Of a DNA stretch of 55,367 bases, positions 16,560-47,400 are shown piece after piece. The notes beneath the pieces were generated by a model. It was given only the letters and a program-made list of their open reading frames with translations. It was not told the origin of the DNA and searched no databases. The position numbers were made by a program, and so were the translations under genes. How positions within the stretch are numbered: position 1 is the stretch's first letter; the number at the start of each line of letters is the position of its first letter. This stretch comes from Actinomycetes bacterium (GTDB taxonomy: Bacteria > Actinomycetota > Acidimicrobiia > Acidimicrobiales > RAAP-2). Where the stretch lies: the NCBI GenBank assembly GCA_021809495.1, contig JAKAZI010000002.1, forward strand, positions 1 to 55,367, read 5' to 3'.

Positions 16560-20391
<3,832 letters not shown>

Positions 20392-20392
<1 letters not shown>

Positions 20393-20422
20393 CTCAGTCG
20401 GTGTCCCCGCCCGAGACTTCCG
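20392..20422. repeat. 31-bp direct repeat, left copy
   Basis: Identical over 31 bases and in the same orientation to 22911-22941, which is the 3' end of ilvC. The two copies bracket a lower-GC segment. Here the repeat supplies the last eight codons and stop of the exported-protein gene on the minus strand, and its first base is the last base of the epimerase stop codon. Confidence 0.95.
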
Positions 20423-21305
20423 CCGCCAGCTGCTCGCCGGCGGCCGTGGCGCGCATCGAGCAGCTGTCGGCGGCGGACCCCCGCGGGCCAGTCTGTACCG
20501 AAGCCGTCCCTCTGGGTGTGAGATCACCTGTCGCTGAGCCCGCCTCAGAGCGCTCGCGTGATGCTGATGCTCGGCGGGTGATGAAGCGGGTTCCCACGAA
20601 CAGGCCTCCGATGACGCCAAGCGAGAGTAGAACCCATAGGAGCACGTAGAGCACGCGAACGCCTCCGGAACTAGGTGACGGCGCCGTGGTCCACGCCACA
20701 CCGGTATTCATAGCGGCTGCCCCAACGGCTCCGGGTACGGGGAAGCAGACGTTCTTCATCCGTCGCGGGAAAAACTTACCGACCGAGGGAACGGGTTTGG
20801 CGTAGCCCTGAACCAGGAGGCCAGTCGCCGTCTCAGATTGGCAGTCAGCTGCGCCCTTGGGAATCGTGGAGCCGAAGAGGAATAGAGCCTCGGCCCTCTG
20901 GTGGAGCTGAAGCACCACGCGCTTCGTCGTGGGGAGCGGCGGATTCGGGATGGTCATGTTGGCGACGGTGACCGTAGAGGCGCTGGTCGCGTCCTTCACG
21001 GCGGCGATGTCCGGGGCGCCCATCAAGAGGTGGCAGACGGGACCCCGGTTGTAGAAGAAGACCGGCACCGCCATCTTCGAGAATGCGTGAACGTTCCCCG
21101 TTTGAGTCGGGTATTGGTACGACACGTCGGAGATAGTCACCCCAGCGGTGACCACGATCTGGGATGTCACGCAGGCCGGGTAGCGCGTTGTGGCTTGGGC
21201 GACCGATGAGATGGAGCCCACTGAGATAGATGACGCAAGGGAAAGGAAGACAACCAGCGCGAGTAGTACGAGATTGCGACGAGCACGCCTTTTGGTGAGC
21301 CTCAT
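20394..21305 (-). CDS. Exported membrane-anchored protein with captured ilvC C-terminus
   Basis: A 303-residue protein. A basic start and hydrophobic helix (about 8-38, ending SSVAQA) form a signal peptide. A cysteine-containing extracellular domain has VPVFFYNRGPVCHLLMGAP, reminiscent of the DUF4232 family of actinobacterial exported proteins. A single membrane helix (about 218-240) is followed by a 59-residue cytoplasmic tail. The last nine residues, EVSGGDTD preceded by part of a codon, are identical to the IlvC end because of a 31-bp repeat, and the residues before that are encoded by the reverse strand of a 37-bp serC copy. The ATG at 21305 follows GGGAGG by seven bases. Codon use is less GC-rich than its neighbours. 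Function unknown. Confidence 0.65.
   Translation of the reverse strand: MRLTKRRARRNLVLLALVVFLSLASSISVGSISSVAQATTRYPACVTSQIVVTAGVTISDVSYQYPTQTGNVHAFSKMAVPVFFYNRGPVCHLLMGAPDIAAVKDATSASTVTVANMTIPNPPLPTTKRVVLQLHQRAEALFLFGSTIPKGAADCQSETATGLLVQGYAKPVPSVGKFFPRRMKNVCFPVPGAVGAAAMNTGVAWTTAPSPSSGGVRVLYVLLWVLLSLGVIGGLFVGTRFITRRASASRERSEAGSATGDLTPRGTASVQTGPRGSAADSCSMRATAAGEQLAAEVSGGDTD
20430..20466 (+). repeat. Displaced exact 37-bp copy of serC
   Basis: Exact copy of 18419-18455, starting seven bases after the left 31-bp repeat. It is read on its reverse strand as part of the C-terminal tail of the exported protein, so the copy here is out of its proper coding sense. Confidence 0.9.
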
Positions 21306-21907
21306 CCACTTACCTCCCACTGACTCAACCTACGCACCTGGGGACGGTCCTGGTGGCAAGTTCGAACACCATCAGTCGCGGCTGACCAGGGAAACTGCAT
21401 GCCTGTTTTTTCCGAGCCCAATCCCATATTCGATCTATCCCAGGGGTGGGTCGCGACCGCCCAGAATCACCGAGCGACTCGGGGTAGATTCAGCGTTAGT
21501 CCAGTGACTGATGAACAGGTGGTCGCAAAACGTGGCGAGAACTCTGTCACGCGTTACCACCAACGAGGAGTCAATGGCTCACGCGAAGTCGTGAAAGTTC
21601 TTGGCAAGACTGGAAGCAAAGTCGATGAGCACGCGCAGGTTGAACGGTAGGAGTGTCAGTCGCGAAATGCTCCGACCCTCTATTACCAAGCGGCCAACAA
21701 CTTACGCGCGACTCGTTCGGTTGAACTCCAACGAGAACAAGAGGGGACGCTGAATGAAGCACCTGACAACTTCATTCCAGTGCCAGGGAATTTCGCCGAG
21801 TGGGCGCAGGTGGAAAAGTGTCGACAGGCGTGCGATAACCGCAGGTTGCCTACTTGCCTCGGCTCATGATCTCCTGGTGGTTGCCAACGAAAACGCGGAA
21901 GCATGAC
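21306..21907. other. Intergenic part of the islet, 602 bp
   Basis: Reduced GC and no gene I can support. TAGGTT near 21328-21333 on the minus strand could be the -10 of the exported-protein gene. On the plus strand a frame runs from GTG 21504 to a TAG at 21648-21650 and stays open in the same frame for about 72 further codons, ending near 21870; it may be a broken gene, but third-position GC is no higher than background. Confidence 0.35.
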
Positions 21908-22501
21908 ATGAAGAACTGGACCGTCGGTTTGCCATTCTCGCGTTCTCACCGAGACGAAACACCACAACGAGTCTTGGGTGCGCGACGACATACGTCGAAT
22001 CGACGCCACATTCGAATAGGCGCACTCACCCTCGTGCTTACGTTGGGCGCTGGTTCATCGGTGGCGGCCGCCGGAATTCGAAGTGCCAGTACGTACTTTC
22101 TGTCGTCGGGTTCAACGATCCAAATGTCTGGTGACCGAATCCACAAGGACGTCAGTTATGTCTTCACGCTTGTCAACGGGAACGCACGGAAAGTATTCGT
22201 TCGCGGAATCGGACGGAGCGGACCCGGCCTGGAACTTCTCGTTCCTCGTGGCTCCGGGACAACGATGAGACTGGATCCTCCGTCGGGACCGGGAACAACG
22301 CACACGGTTCCGGCGCACAAGTCAATACGTTTGACCGTGTGGTTCCACGTCAGTGATTGCTCCACGGTTCCACGAGGATCGTGGCCACTCACGATGGATG
22401 TCGCGTGGAGTCCTGGGAAGTGGAACCGGGTGGGCTTGCAGATGACCAGTGGTCTGTCAGTGCAGTGGCAGAAATCCCTTGCCAATCTGGTTTGCCCGTA
22501 A
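21908..22501 (+). CDS. Exported hypothetical protein
   Basis: A 197-residue protein beginning MKNWTVGLPF. A basic region with many Arg is followed by a hydrophobic helix (about 36-54, IRIGALTLVLTLGAGSSVAAAG) consistent with a Sec signal peptide. The remainder is beta-rich with two cysteines, one two residues from the end (LVCP), and looks like a small extracellular immunoglobulin-like domain. The ATG at 21908 is chosen because GGAAG is close upstream and the signal sequence follows naturally; the open frame extends 18 codons further. Third-position GC is clearly lower than in flanking genes, consistent with acquisition. Convergent to ilvC. Function unknown. Confidence 0.55.
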   Translation: MKNWTVGLPFSRSHRDETPQRVLGARRHTSNRRHIRIGALTLVLTLGAGSSVAAAGIRSASTYFLSSGSTIQMSGDRIHKDVSYVFTLVNGNARKVFVRGIGRSGPGLELLVPRGSGTTMRLDPPSGPGTTHTVPAHKSIRLTVWFHVSDCSTVPRGSWPLTMDVAWSPGKWNRVGLQMTSGLSVQWQKSLANLVCP

Positions 22502-22912
22502 CTCAGTTCGGATCCCGTGTATCGGCCGTGCGGGACGACGTATGAGCGCAAGCCACGATCGTCTGCCGTTCCTCGTGGTGCCTTGACCGCCAGTTGTGAA
22601 AGATCGTTCTCCCGTAGGCGGGAAATTTAACCAATCACCTCCAGCCAGCCCGTGGCCCAGCGACGGGAAACGGTTGGTCGCTTACGCACCTCTATTCACC
22701 TCGAGCAAGATCCGGGTGGCGCCCAGTGCTCCCACCCGGGCGGTTCGCCCGGCGGTCGAGAATATTGCGCCGCACGTGCGCATAGACATGAGGCGCCGAA
22801 TCGTTCGCTCTCGGTCGGGCGGCGTTCTGCTCGATCGGCGTCGCGCCATTTCGGCGAGACGCCTTGTGATCGATGACGTTGACAATCAATCCCGACTTCG
22901 GTCAGGCATCAC
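22502..22912. other. Intergenic right end of the islet, 411 bp
   Basis: No supportable gene. A short plus-strand stem TCCCG-TAGG-CGGGA near 22614-22627 is followed by AATTTAA and could be a weak terminator for the exported-protein gene. Open frames on both strands here have no recognisable domain. Confidence 0.3.
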
Positions 22913-22941
22913 TCAGTCGGTGTCCCCGCCCGAGACTTCCG
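22911..22941. repeat. 31-bp direct repeat, right copy (ilvC 3' end)
   Basis: Encodes EVSGGDTD and the TGA of ilvC on the minus strand and extends two bases past it. Identical to 20392-20422. Confidence 0.95.
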
Positions 22942-23947
22942 ACACCTTCTGCTTGCCCGCCGACACGAAGGGCATCATGGCGCGCAACTTCTTGCCGATG
23001 TCCTCGATCGGGTGCTTCTTACCGACCTCGCGCAACTCGCGGTAGCGCGGGCGGCCGATCTCGTTCTCCTTGATCCACTCGGCGGCGAAGGTGCCGTCTT
23101 GGATCTCGGTGAGCACCTTCTTCATCTCGGCCTTCACCTGGCTCGTGATGATCCTCGGCCCGCGGGTCAGGTCGCCGTACTCGGCGGTGTCCGACACCGA
23201 GAAGCGCATGCCGGTGATCCCCTCTTCGTACATCAGGTCCACGATCAGCTTGAGCTCGTGCAGACACTCGAAGTAGGCGCTCTCGGGCTGGTAGCCCGCC
23301 TCGACGAGCGTCTCGTACCCGGCGGTCACCAGAGCGCTCACGCCGCCGCAGAGCACGGCCTGCTCGCCGAACAGGTCCGTCTCGGTCTCCTCGGTGAAGG
23401 TCGTCTCGAGCACCCCGGCGCGGGTCGCGCCGATGCCGTGGGCGTAGGCGAGGGCGATCGCGTGCGCCTGACCGGTGGCGTCCTGGTGGACGGCGATCAA
23501 CGACGGCACGCCGCCGCCCTCGACGTAGGTGCGCCGCACCAGGTGGCCGGGGCCCTTGGGCGCCACCATCGCGACGTCCACGTCAGCGGGCGGCGTGATG
23601 AGGTCGAAGCGGATATTGAAGCCGTGGGCGAACAGCAGGCACTTGCCGGCCGACAGGTGCGGCGCGACCTCGAGGTCGTAGATGCGCTTCTGCTCGGTGT
23701 CGGGTAGCAGCATCATGATGATGTCGGCCTCGGCGACGGCGTCGGCGATGCCGAGCACCCGCAGGCCCGCCTCTTCGGCCTTGAAGACCGACGAGGACTC
23801 CGGACGAAGACCCACCCGCACGTCCAGTCCCGAATCGTGGAGGTTCAGCGCGTGCGCGTGGCCCTGGGAGCCGTAGCCGAGGATCGCGATCTTCTTGCCC
23901 TCGAGGATCTCGGGGTGGGCGTCGCCTTCGTAGTACATCGTGGTCAT
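22913..23947 (-). CDS. ilvC: Ketol-acid reductoisomerase
   Basis: A 344-residue class I KARI that isomerises and reduces acetolactate or acetohydroxybutyrate with NADPH and Mg. [20 protein letters not shown] (about 24-43) is the Rossmann loop, followed by [10 protein letters not shown] for the NADPH phosphate. The knotted C-terminal domain has the metal ligands in [11 protein letters not shown] and [17 protein letters not shown]. The C-terminal tail [13 protein letters not shown] reappears on the neighbouring islet protein. Last gene of ilvB-ilvN-ilvC, 12 bases after ilvN. Confidence 0.96.
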
Positions 23948-26449: not shown

Positions 26450-28129
26450 TCAGCGTGACGTCACCGCACCGGTTTCGGCCCCCTGGACCAGTCGGGCGAA
26501 CTTCTCCAAGACCCCGGTCGTGTACCGGGGCACGAACGGTGCTCGGCGCTCGGCGCGCGCCGCGAGGACCGCGTCGTCGACGAGCAGATCGATCGTGTTG
26601 GTCGTCACGTCGATTTCGATGACGTCGCCGTCTTCAACGAGGCCGATCGGCCCCCCGTCGAGCGCCTCGGGCGCCACGTGGCCCACGCAAAAACCGTGGG
26701 TGCCGCCACTGAATCGTCCGTCGGTGACGAGTGCCGAGTCACTGCCGCGGCCCACGCCCTTCATCGCGCCGGTGACCGCGAGCATCTCGCGCATGCCCGG
26801 ACCGGACTTCGGGCCCTCGTAACGAATGACCACCACGGTCTCGGGCTCGATCTCACCGGCGAGGATCGCGGTCATCGCCGCGTCCTCACCGTCAAAGACC
26901 CGCGCGGTGCCTCGAAAGTGCAGGTTGTCGATGCCCGCGACTTTCACGACGGCGCCCTTGGGCGCGAGCGAACCGCGCAGCACCGCGATGCCGCCGCGGT
27001 CGTGGATCGGGTGGTCGACGTCGTGGATGACCTCACCGTCGGGTCGCCGGGCGGCGAAGGCCTCGAGGCTCGTCGCCATGGTCTCACCCGAAACGGTCAT
27101 CACGTCGCCGTGCAGCAGGCCCCGCTCGAGCAGGTGCGCGAGCACGACCGGCACCCCGCCGATCTCGTCGATGTCGCTCATGTGATATTTGCCGTGCGGC
27201 TTGGTGTCGGCGATGTGGGGTACGCGCGCGGCGATCGTGTTGAAGTCGTCGAGCTCGAGTGGCACGCGCGCCTCGTGGGCGATGGCGAGCAGGTGCAGCA
27301 CCGCGTTCGTCGAACCACCGAGGGCCATCACCACCGCGATGGCGTTCTCGAACGCCTCGCGGGTCATGATCTGGCGGGCGGTGATCCCACGGTCGAGCAG
27401 GTTCACCACGGCCAGTCCCGAGTCGTAGGCGTACTGGTCGCGTCGCGGGTCGATCGACGGCACGCTCGCGCTGCCGAGCAGCGACATGCCGAGCGCCTCG
27501 CCGACGCTCGCCATCGTGTTGGCCGTAAACATCCCCGCGCAGCTACCCTCGCCGGGGCACGCCGCGAGTTCGATCTCGCGCAGTTCGCCGTCGCTCATCG
27601 AGCCGACCGCGTTCGCACCGACCGCCTCGAACACCGACGTGATGTCGAGCGACTGGCCGTGGTGATGGCCCGGCATGATGGTGCCACCGTAGAGGAAGAC
27701 CGCGGGCACGTCCAAGCGCGCGGCCGCCATCAGCATCCCCGGCAGCGACTTGTCACAGCCCGCGAAGGTCACCAGCGCGTCGAAACGCTCCGCGTGCATC
27801 ACGGTCTCGACCGAGTCGGCGATGACCTCACGCGAGACGAGCGAAGCGCGCATTCCCTCGTGACCCATCGAGATACCGTCGGAGACCGCGATGGTGACGA
27901 ACTCGAAGGGCACGGCCCCCGCGTCGCGCACCGCGACCTTCGCGCGCTTGGCCAGTCGGTCGAGCGGCAGGTTGCACGGCGTCACCTCGTTCCAGCTCGA
28001 CGCCACGCCGATCTGAGCCTTGACCATGTCGTCGTCACCTAAGCCCATGGCGCGCAACATCGCGCGCGCGGGCGCGCGGCCCTTGCCGAGGGTGACGTCG
28101 GTGCTGCGGGGGGTGGGATGGGTCGTCAT
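26450..28129 (-). CDS. ilvD: Dihydroxy-acid dehydratase
   Basis: A 559-residue Fe-S dehydratase giving 2-oxoisovalerate or 2-oxo-3-methylvalerate. The cluster cysteines lie in [12 protein letters not shown] (about 120) and [11 protein letters not shown] (about 190), with a further conserved Cys in [28 protein letters not shown] and [20 protein letters not shown] are diagnostic of IlvD rather than Edd. The ATG at 28129 is six bases after a TAGACT -10 box, so the gene has its own leaderless promoter and is not in the ilvBNC transcript. Confidence 0.95.
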
Positions 28130-43312: not shown

Positions 43313-43346
43313 GACGAGGCCGGGGGCGTACGCCCCCGGCCTCGTC
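43313..43346. terminator. Perfect 34-bp palindrome after yceI
   Basis: Two 16-base arms (GACGAGGCCGGGGGCG and its exact complement) separated by TA, 24 bases past the yceI stop. Very stable hairpin in either strand, no T run; most likely a T-less terminator for yceI, also shielding the MFS-ligA run. Confidence 0.65.
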
Positions 43347-44025: not shown

Positions 44026-44484
44026 ATGTCGATCGACCCCACTGCCTGTCCCTCGGGAGACGAGCAGGTCACGCTGTTCGGCCTCCTGCTCGAGACCAAC
44101 GCTCGCCTCGCCCGCGGTCTCGGCGTCGAGCTCGAAGCGACGTGTGATCTACCCCTCGCCTGGTTCGAGGTCCTCCTGCAGTTGCGCAAGTCGCCCGATG
44201 GTCGACTCAAGATGAACCAGGTGGCCGACGCCATCGTCCACTCGACGGGCGGCACCACCCGGCTGATCGACCGACTCGAAGAGGCGGGCCTCGTCGAGCG
44301 GACCCTGTGTCCTTCAGACCGGCGCGCGATCCACGTCGCGATCACCGAAGCCGGCAACGCCAAGCTCGACGACGCCCTCGCCGTCCACCTCGACTACCTG
44401 GACCAACGCCTGGCGGGTCGACTCAGCGAGTCCGAGCGCCGGTCGCTGTCCAAGTTGCTCGGCAAACTCAACGCGAGCGTCTAG
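44026..44484 (+). CDS. MarR-family transcriptional regulator
   Basis: A 152-residue winged-helix dimeric regulator. LPLAWFEVLLQLRKSPDGRL in two parts leads into the recognition region MNQVADAIVHSTGGTTRLIDRLEEAGLVER and the wing CPSDRRAIHVAITEAG, the classic MarR layout. It is divergent from yceI with a perfect operator between, so repression of yceI and possibly itself, released by a small ligand, is the likely role. Its TAG shares a CTAG with the ileS stop. Confidence 0.92.
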   Translation: MSIDPTACPSGDEQVTLFGLLLETNARLARGLGVELEATCDLPLAWFEVLLQLRKSPDGRLKMNQVADAIVHSTGGTTRLIDRLEEAGLVERTLCPSDRRAIHVAITEAGNAKLDDALAVHLDYLDQRLAGRLSESERRSLSKLLGKLNASV

Positions 44485-47400
44485 ACCCGCTCGATCCAGA
44501 CCGACGCCGCGCGGCCGTCGTCGAGTTCGAGCGCGTGGGCCGGTGCCGGGTGACTCCCCGTTTCGATCGCCGTCGCGAGCACTTCGCGCGCGAGGACCCC
44601 AAAACCGTCGGCCAGGTCGTCGAGCCCGCTCAGCGTGACGCGAATGTGGTCCGCGACGTCCAGACCCGAGGACTTACGCAGGTCCTGGATCTGGCGCACG
44701 ACGTCGCGCAGGTAGCCGCGACGACGGAGCTCGTCGTTGAGCGTGAGGTCCAACGCGATGACCTCCGCACCGTCGCGCGAGACGGCGAACCCGCCCTGGC
44801 TGCGCACGCGCAATTCCAGGTCCTCGGCGCCGAGGTCGAAGGCACCGGTGGAGAGCTCGACGCGCACCGTCTCGCCCGCGTCGAGCACGGCGGCGGCGGC
44901 CACGGGGTCCAGGGCGGCGAGGGCCGGCTTGAGCTCCTTGACCGCTTCACCGAGGCGTGGGCCGACGGACCGGAAGTTGGGCACTAACTCGAAACTGAGC
45001 ACCTCAGCCAACTCCGTACCGTATTCGAGCACGTCCACGTTGAGCTCGTCCTCGACGACGTCCTGCGGCGGGCGTGGCGCGTCGTTGGGCAGGAACACGA
45101 GGGCGCGGGCCAGTGGCTGGCGGACCTTGATGCCCGCCTCGGCGCGGGCGGCGCGACCGAGTGAGGTGAGCCGTCGAGCCACGACCATCGAGCGCTCGAG
45201 GTCCTCGTCGATCAGGTCGGTCGTCGCGACCGGCCAGTCCTCGAGGTGAACCGACGCTGCGTCGTCGACGTCGTTGAGCGCGCGATAGAGCCGTTCGGCG
45301 ACGAACGGCGTGAACGGGGCGATGAGCAGCGTGATCCGCTGCAGCACCGTCAACAGGGTCGCGTGCGCCGCCAGCGAGTCCGACGCCGGTGCATCCGGGT
45401 CCGTCCGCCAGAAGCGACGACGGCTGCGCCGGACGTACCAGTTCGACAGGTCGTCGATCAGGGCCGCGAGCGCGTCGGTCCCGCCGAGCGGCTCGTACCC
45501 GTCGAGCGCGGCCGTCACCGCGAACGTCGTCGTCTCGAGACGCGAGAGGATCCACCGGTCCATGTCGTTGCGCGCACCCGCCGGCGGCACCCCGGGGTCG
45601 GCGGGGTCGAAGCCGTTGAGCGCGGCGTAGGTCGTAAAGAAACTGAACGTGTTCCAGAGCGTCGCCAGCGTCTCGCGCAGCGACGAGTCGATAGCGCCCA
45701 GGCTGGCCCTCGTCGACGTCCACGGCGATCCTTGCGAGAACATCCACCAGCGCAGCGGGTCGGCACCGCGGGTCGAAAGGACCTCCCACGGGTCGATGAC
45801 GTTGCCGACGGACTTACTCATCTTGCGGCCCTGTTCGTCCACGATGTGGCCGAGACACAGCACGTGTTGATAGGGGGTGCCCCCAAAGACGAGGGTGTTG
45901 ACGGCGAGCAACGAGTAGAACCAGCCACGGGTCTGGTCGATGGCCTCGGCAACCAACTGCGCGGGGAACTGCATCGCCTCGGACGAACCCGCGACGTGCG
46001 GGTAGCCGACCTGGGCCGCGGGCATCGCACCCGAATCGAACCACGCGTCGATCACTGGCTCGACCCGCCGAGCCACCCGAGCGCAGGTCGGGCAGTCAAA
46101 GACCACGTCGTCGATGTAGGGGCGATGCGGATCGAGGTCGCTGAGGTCCCGACCGGCCAGCTCGCCCAACTCGGCGCGCGAGCCGATACAGGTGAGGTGG
46201 CCGTCTTCGCATCGCCAGATCGGCAGCGGCGTGCCCCAGAAGCGGTCGCGTGAAAGCGCCCAGTCGACGTTGTTGGCGAGCCACTCACCGAAGCGACCGT
46301 CGCGGATGTGGGCCGGGTGCCAGTCGATGGTCGAGTTCTCGGCCATCATCGCCTCTTTAAACCGGCTCGTCGCGATGTACCAGCTCGGCTTGCCCCAGTA
46401 GATAAGCACCGTGCCGCAGCGCCAGCAGTGTGGGAGGGCGTGGGTGTAGTCCATGCGCCGAATGAGCAGACCGCGTCGTTCCAGCTCGTCGTTGATCATG
46501 TGATTCGCCTGGCGTACGTCGCGGCCCTCCAGCCACCCGATCGCCGAGGTGAACGTGCCGTCGGGACCGACGGGGTTAACCGTCGGCAAACCGTATTCCC
46601 GGGCCACCTGCCGGTCCACCTCGCCGAAGGCGGGCGCCTGGTGCACCAGTCCGGTGCCCTCGTCGGTCGTGACGTAGTCGGCGGCGACCACGTAGCAGGC
46701 GTCCACGTCGTCAAGTTCGACGTCGGTGAAGGGTCGTTCGTAGTGCAGTCCCACCAACTCGGCGCCCGAGAGTGTCGCCGACGCTTTGACGCTGGGTCCG
46801 AAGACCGATTCCACCAGGTCCGCGGCGACGACGGTGCCGTCCACCACGGCGTAGGTGATCGACGGGTTCACCGCCACGGCGACGTTGGACAGGAGCGTCC
46901 AGGGAGTCGTGGTCCACACCGCGAGGTGCGTGACACCGGCGACGCCGTGGGCTGGCGCGTCGGTCACCGCGAGACGCACGTAGCAGCTCTCGTCGACCTC
47001 GTCGGTGTAGACCCCGGGCTGACCGAGCTCGTGACTCGAGAGGGCCGTGCCACACCTCGGACAGTACGGGACGACCTTGAGGTCCTCGTAGAGCAGTCCG
47101 CGTGCGAAGAGTTGCTGGAGCTGCCACCACACCGATTCGATGTAGGAGGGATTGAAGGTGAAGTACGCGTGCTCCATATCGGTCCAGTAGCCGATGCGCT
47201 CGGTGAGCCGTTCGAATTCACCGACGTAGGTCATCACCGACTCGCGGCAGAGCCGCGTGAACTCGGTGATGCCGACCTCCTCGATGATCGCGCGCTTGCC
47301 CGAAATCCCGAGCTGCTTTTCAACCTGGACCTCGACGGGGAGGCCGTGCGTGTCCCACCCGGCCCGGCGCGCGACGAAGCGACCGCGCATGGTCTGATAG

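Follow-up and report, generated by a model that had tools for sequence, protein, structure and literature searches.

When a small islet is bounded by direct repeats, these are commonly interpreted as attachment sites or as duplications of the target site. In Acinetobacter, short-patch double illegitimate recombination is said to copy short pieces of the cell's own genome elsewhere through microhomology, where they appear as short substitutions. This differs from the locus described here, in which such pieces border a 2.4-kb insertion.

The MMBIR model (PMC2621351) has as its marks microhomology, stretches copied from elsewhere and a duplication when replication returns behind the point of collapse. 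Our locus has short overlaps between its host-derived pieces, which may correspond to that microhomology, and is like MMBIR/FoSTeS in the nearby templates copied in both orientations and in a duplication that would stem from a return behind the break. It is unlike it in that the model was devised for human copy-number change, whereas here a bacterium, a foreign fragment of 2.4 kb and a single event are concerned. The paper on the four-point model (PMC7954356) treats a hairpin form known from bacteria, and also events whose return precedes the exit. As in the quasipalindrome template-switch mutations treated there, a 7-bp inverted repeat, in our case within serC, is the putative strand-switch point and a hairpin results, but the copy in the islet lies 2 kb from its template and would belong to one of several switches rather than to a local correction.

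Homology-facilitated illegitimate recombination (HFIR) is described in PMC3240628 for three species with natural competence and for conjugation in E. coli. There, as here, foreign DNA enters with one untidy junction, while our locus differs by showing no target deletion, no visible donor tract and extra host-derived pieces. Finally, a survey of gut metagenomes (PMC11317153) verified 2320 transfer events, assigned none of them to FoSTeS/MMBIR and suggested that this mechanism may not act in bacterial gene transfer. In the same survey, microhomology is enriched at the junctions, mechanisms were assigned mainly from donor-side deletions and only five insertions were assigned. Our own literature search, conducted on titles and abstract openings, found no bacterial foreign insertion with multi-template patches.

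The SDR-ilvC site and its empty counterpart

We analysed a stretch of 55,367 nt, hereafter the window, from a draft actinobacterial genome (assembly GCA_021809495.1, contig JAKAZI010000002.1). The site of interest comprises the following features:

17772-18914, forward strand: serC-like class-V aminotransferase gene (PF00266)
18911-20392 (start putative), forward strand: SDR/DUF2867 gene, left neighbour (PF11066, PF13460)
20392-20422, forward strand: left copy of the 31-nt repeat, native SDR-ilvC junction (exact match to 22911-22941; same junction in the relative G464)
20467-22910, no strand: islet proper, 2.44 kb, taken as foreign (absent from the site in G464; DNA search of 61 genomes, own included)
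22911-22941, forward strand: right copy of the 31-nt repeat, 3' end of the intact ilvC (exact match; comparison with G464)
22913-23947, reverse strand: ilvC, right neighbour, open over 344 aa (open reading frame; DNA match to the ilvC end in 86 of 99 genus genomes, own included)

We take the first gene to be serC, Pfam giving only the family, and the last is presumably ilvC.

As the preliminary description of this DNA had stated, the two repeat copies are identical over 31 nt; the identity has exactly this length, the adjoining base differing on either side. The final 29 nt of ilvC, with its stop codon, make up the repeat together with two bases outside the gene. At the left, the SDR stop TGA (20390-20392) is followed by one base and then by the TCA of the left ilvC-end copy. 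In a search allowing 3 mismatches at most, the 31-nt sequence occurs at these two sites only in the whole window, and the maximum number of matches in 100 shuffles was 0. The longest exact direct repeats of the window are one of 37 bp between serC and the left seam, considered below, and that of the ilvC end, the next being of 20 bp. This exact 20-bp direct repeat is found at 26887 and 35983, 9 kb apart. Elsewhere in the window, at 43313-43346, lies a perfect GC-rich palindrome of 34 bp that is possibly a terminator.

The same description had predicted that an islet was inserted into a convergent SDR-ilvC site with one base between the stops, and that a close relative would have a single 31-bp copy. 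G464 has precisely this structure: its SDR stop is followed by one base and by the ilvC stop, and a single, identical copy of the 31 bp runs into ilvC, with no islet. The two genomes share about 86% DNA identity (86.8% and 85.2% over two long colinear blocks) and 95-96% at the protein level for SerC, SDR and IlvC. The G464 contig C25 is colinear with window positions 4355-44483, and over this span the window carries no large insertion besides the islet. Because the empty site in G464 holds one 31-bp copy and no islet, the alignment identifies the islet as a real insertion. G464 has a 2.7-kb insertion of its own (G464:C25 37567-40271; L153, L154), which faces window positions 44483-44487, carries an open reading frame of more than 700 aa, exported as judged by eye, and matches the remainder of its contig over at most 15 nt.

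We read 68 loci of relatives, picked from among the genus genomes with an ilvC match, of which 66 include the ilvC 3' end. The nearest upstream marker is SDR in 26 of these 66, serC in 29 and neither in 11. Where SDR lies upstream, 18 of the 26 loci have the two stops overlapping or no more than 4 bp apart, with less certain distances in G008, G028 and G442, whose SDR matches are short or damaged; the remaining 8 loci carry other DNA of 194-4084 bp between SDR and ilvC. More broadly, the serC-ilvC interval (L063-L084, L112-L151) undergoes strong turnover of gene content in the genus, with SDR found in some loci and missing in others, and with as much as several kb of other DNA.

Composition and genes of the islet

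The lower GC content noted earlier for the islet was borne out, as was the low third-position GC of its two genes. GC content is 59.7% in the islet proper and 67.5% in the window as a whole, and the five lowest-GC segments of islet size, among 530 tested, start at 20501-20901 and overlap the islet. GC3 is 0.73 in gene 1, the patch described below being left out, and 0.61 in gene 2, compared with 0.84-0.95 in five neighbouring genes. The two genes are:

20394-21320, reverse strand: islet gene 1, 308 aa (open reading frame; signal-like start and C-terminal hydrophobic segment by eye)
21854-22501, forward strand: islet gene 2, 215 aa, exported as judged by eye (matched in 13 genomes of the genus out of 99, own included; structure model)

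The body of gene 1 has a relative at 36-37% identity in G178, its sole match among the 396 other genomes of the order; this search covered 397 genomes, 14 of them from the genus (own included) out of its 99. Because of this relative, sequence comparison supports the gene 1 body as a real gene. Searches of protein families gave nothing significant for gene 1 (Pfam Bax1-I at E 0.74 and one PHROG without function at E 0.018), no Pfam or PHROG match for gene 2 and no NCBIfam match for either.

The C-terminal part of gene 2 is predicted to form a beta-sandwich from about residue 72. The overall pLDDT of the model is 72.6, most of the first 71 residues being below 50 and the blocks from residue 81 having means of 75-96. 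The fold search returned loose beta-sandwich matches only, the best being the PCuA copper chaperone (E 1e-4, TM 0.27/0.40), along with complement domains; the model has no clear match in the PDB and we claim no function for it. Matches to gene 2 were found in four named genome contigs, from Acidimicrobiaceae, Actinomycetes (two) and Acidobacteria (the submitter's label), and at least some of these, to go by their lengths, coincide with contigs of the 13 genus genomes. In six loci, relatives of gene 2 also show a lowish GC3 of 0.55-0.74. A relative of gene 2, at L086 411-2337 (G020:C59), lies about 1 kb from serine resolvase and TnpB-like genes (PF00239, PF12323, PF01385, PF07282), which resemble an IS607-type element, and L132 (G457:C40) has the same layout.

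Other sources for the islet were considered. A viral or plasmid cargo was rejected, since viral contigs held no relative of gene 2 (alignment query) or of the gene 1 body (single-sequence query, which detects close relatives only) and plasmid DNA gave no match to the islet. No RNA family was found at E up to 0.5 in 20200-23100. Weak DNA matches of the islet right end to three genomes (E about 7e-4) had suggested a gene remnant; this candidate was dropped, the three loci appearing by eye to be different genes, with poor alignment, and the host genome having no BacA match.

The left seam and the origin of the repeat

The preliminary description does not mention that the left seam is a mosaic of host serC pieces. 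Its components are:

18419-18461, forward strand: template for both serC patches, within serC, with the 7-nt inverted repeat CTGCTCG/CGAGCAG
20421-20436, reverse strand: 16-nt serC patch (exact match to 18446-18461)
20430-20466, forward strand: 37-nt serC patch (exact match to 18419-18455; 42/43 if taken to 20472)
20419-20477, no strand: predicted hairpin of the two serC patches, inverted and direct (DNA fold of 20414-20480)

Thus, within 75 nt (20392-20466), three exact host-derived pieces follow one another: the ilvC end (31/31), an inverted copy of serC (16/16) and a direct copy of serC (37/37), the serC source lying about 2 kb upstream of the seam. The ilvC piece and the inverted patch overlap by 2 bp (CG), which is uninformative in GC-rich DNA, and the two serC patches by 7 bp (CTGCTCG), one arm of the serC inverted repeat. 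The predicted fold of 20414-20480 has an energy of -27 kcal/mol (z -3.7), and none of 200 shuffles was equally stable. As a control, we examined other inserts at the same locus in relatives, 24 in number and each 120 bp or longer. Their longest match to the rest of the locus examined was 18 nt, with local hairpins excluded and the window handled alike.

We set the patch boundaries where the matches end without mismatch. The serC patch could be carried on to 20472 or 20480 (42/43; the later GGACC is common to other serC genes), but this is unneeded. Over 43 nt, the patch is closest to the serC of its own genome (42 identities, against 39 for G464 and at most 37 for other loci among those listed), so the copying most likely took place in this lineage once it had separated from G464. 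With the patch ends taken as those of the exact matches, all 75 host-derived bases have stayed unchanged since, and because the pieces are without mismatch the event looks recent. The mosaic also shapes the end of gene 1: its last 23 codons and stop fall in the patches, as serC read antisense and then the last eight codons and stop of ilvC in frame. Most simply, the piece of foreign DNA would have been broken within gene 1, and repair would have supplied a new tail of 23 residues and a stop.

We propose that the 2.44-kb foreign fragment was probably captured between SDR and ilvC by illegitimate repair of a replication type, with template switching of the MMBIR or fork-stalling kind. We infer the direction and the order of the switches, as well as the enzymes and the entry route of the foreign DNA, and read from left to right the event could have run as follows. 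Synthesis would have passed from SDR into ilvC and abandoned its template 29 nt inside the latter, then primed on 2 bp in serC, 2 kb off, and copied 16 nt in reverse. At the 7-bp inverted repeat CTGCTCG/CGAGCAG it would have switched strand and copied 37 nt of serC forward, after which the foreign DNA would have been joined or copied. Resumption on the first template, 31 nt behind the point of exit, would then create the 31-bp direct repeat without an integrase. Copied stretches at the junction, an inverted segment and a duplication at the point of return, all expected of such a process, are present in the 37-nt and 16-nt serC copies and the 31-bp duplication.

The earlier description had left three origins standing, an integrase acting in trans, a remnant or template switching during replication, and had likened the repeats to attachment sites. 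Among these, we favour template switching, since the two serC pieces of the left seam are not what an integrase would produce, and the attachment-site reading was not upheld. According to that reading, the ilvC 3' end would be the attachment site of an integrase that has since disappeared or acts from another part of the genome. In its favour are the perfect direct repeats of 31 bp at the 3' end of a gene, the single copy in the empty site of G464 against two here, and four tyrosine-recombinase matches above the cut-off on other contigs of the genome. The islet itself, as had been noted, shows no integrase: neither of its genes matches a recombinase family, the tyrosine-recombinase family PF00589 has no match on this contig and the window holds no tRNA. 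The other islets suspected to end at the ilvC 3' end were sought in the 66 relatives' loci, and none has a second ilvC-end copy in the upstream DNA examined, which reaches 7 kb or stops sooner at a contig end (ungapped matches of 15-23/31 at best, against 30/31 here), though 8 of the 26 loci with SDR upstream do carry other DNA. Without such repeats in relatives, and with host serC pieces starting directly after the left repeat where clean seams are expected, we rejected this reading as highly improbable. An artefact has also to be weighed, in that the left seam or the whole islet might be an assembly or amplification chimera that is not in the living genome. Local inverted and direct pieces, like those seen here, are also typical of whole-genome amplification chimeras; moreover, the genome is a draft of 123 contigs, 89% complete, and a 31-bp repeat is able to mislead a k-mer assembler. 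Yet both flanks are colinear with G464, so that two false joins around 2.4 kb would be needed, and the islet looks more like accessory DNA of the genus than stray contamination because both of its genes have relatives in the same genus and those of gene 2 share its lowish GC3. We therefore regard a chimera as unlikely.

HFIR would explain the islet by a linear fragment made of the islet and an ilvC 3' end, with homologous recombination in ilvC at the right and an illegitimate join at the left. Consistent with this, the right seam passes cleanly into ilvC and the left alone is untidy. A search for donors carrying the islet next to ilvC found none, as tblastn (E 1e-5) matched neither islet protein in the 68 ilvC loci of relatives, and ilvC contains no divergent donor tract (identity to G464 of 0.83-0.98 per 60 nt), though none would be expected from a donor of the same species. 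As a rule HFIR deletes target DNA (PMC3240628), whereas here nothing is lost relative to G464 and 31 bp are duplicated. The same paper reports that 56 of 60 recombinants gave a PCR product for a partial duplication (14 sequenced), explained by a single crossing-over of circularised DNA. Such an event might also duplicate the 31 bp, but it would not create the serC pieces, which HFIR alone leaves unexplained as well. We consider HFIR improbable for the whole locus and possible for its right side. Classical Ku-dependent end joining is unlikely because no Ku match (PF02735) was found in this genome, an absence that is uncertain at 89% completeness, and only 8 of 99 genus genomes have one.

Template switching as a possible route of gene gain

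Since the locus is known both empty and filled, and the origin of the 75 host bases is known too, the repeat can be explained as replication stepping back. This is a single event, and what we advance more tentatively is its full extent: a wild actinobacterium without detectable Ku may have taken up foreign genes by serial switching over about 2 kb of its own chromosome, with neither integrase nor homology arm, the same event making a new end for gene 1. Short copies of neighbouring genes at the edge of an islet provide a signature that can be searched for in other genomes. The locus is a candidate counterexample to the suggestion in PMC11317153 that FoSTeS/MMBIR may play no part in bacterial gene transfer, and would, if our reading is true, contradict it. 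If true and common, template switching of this kind would be an overlooked route of gene gain in bacteria, whose flanking repeats are misread as attachment sites.
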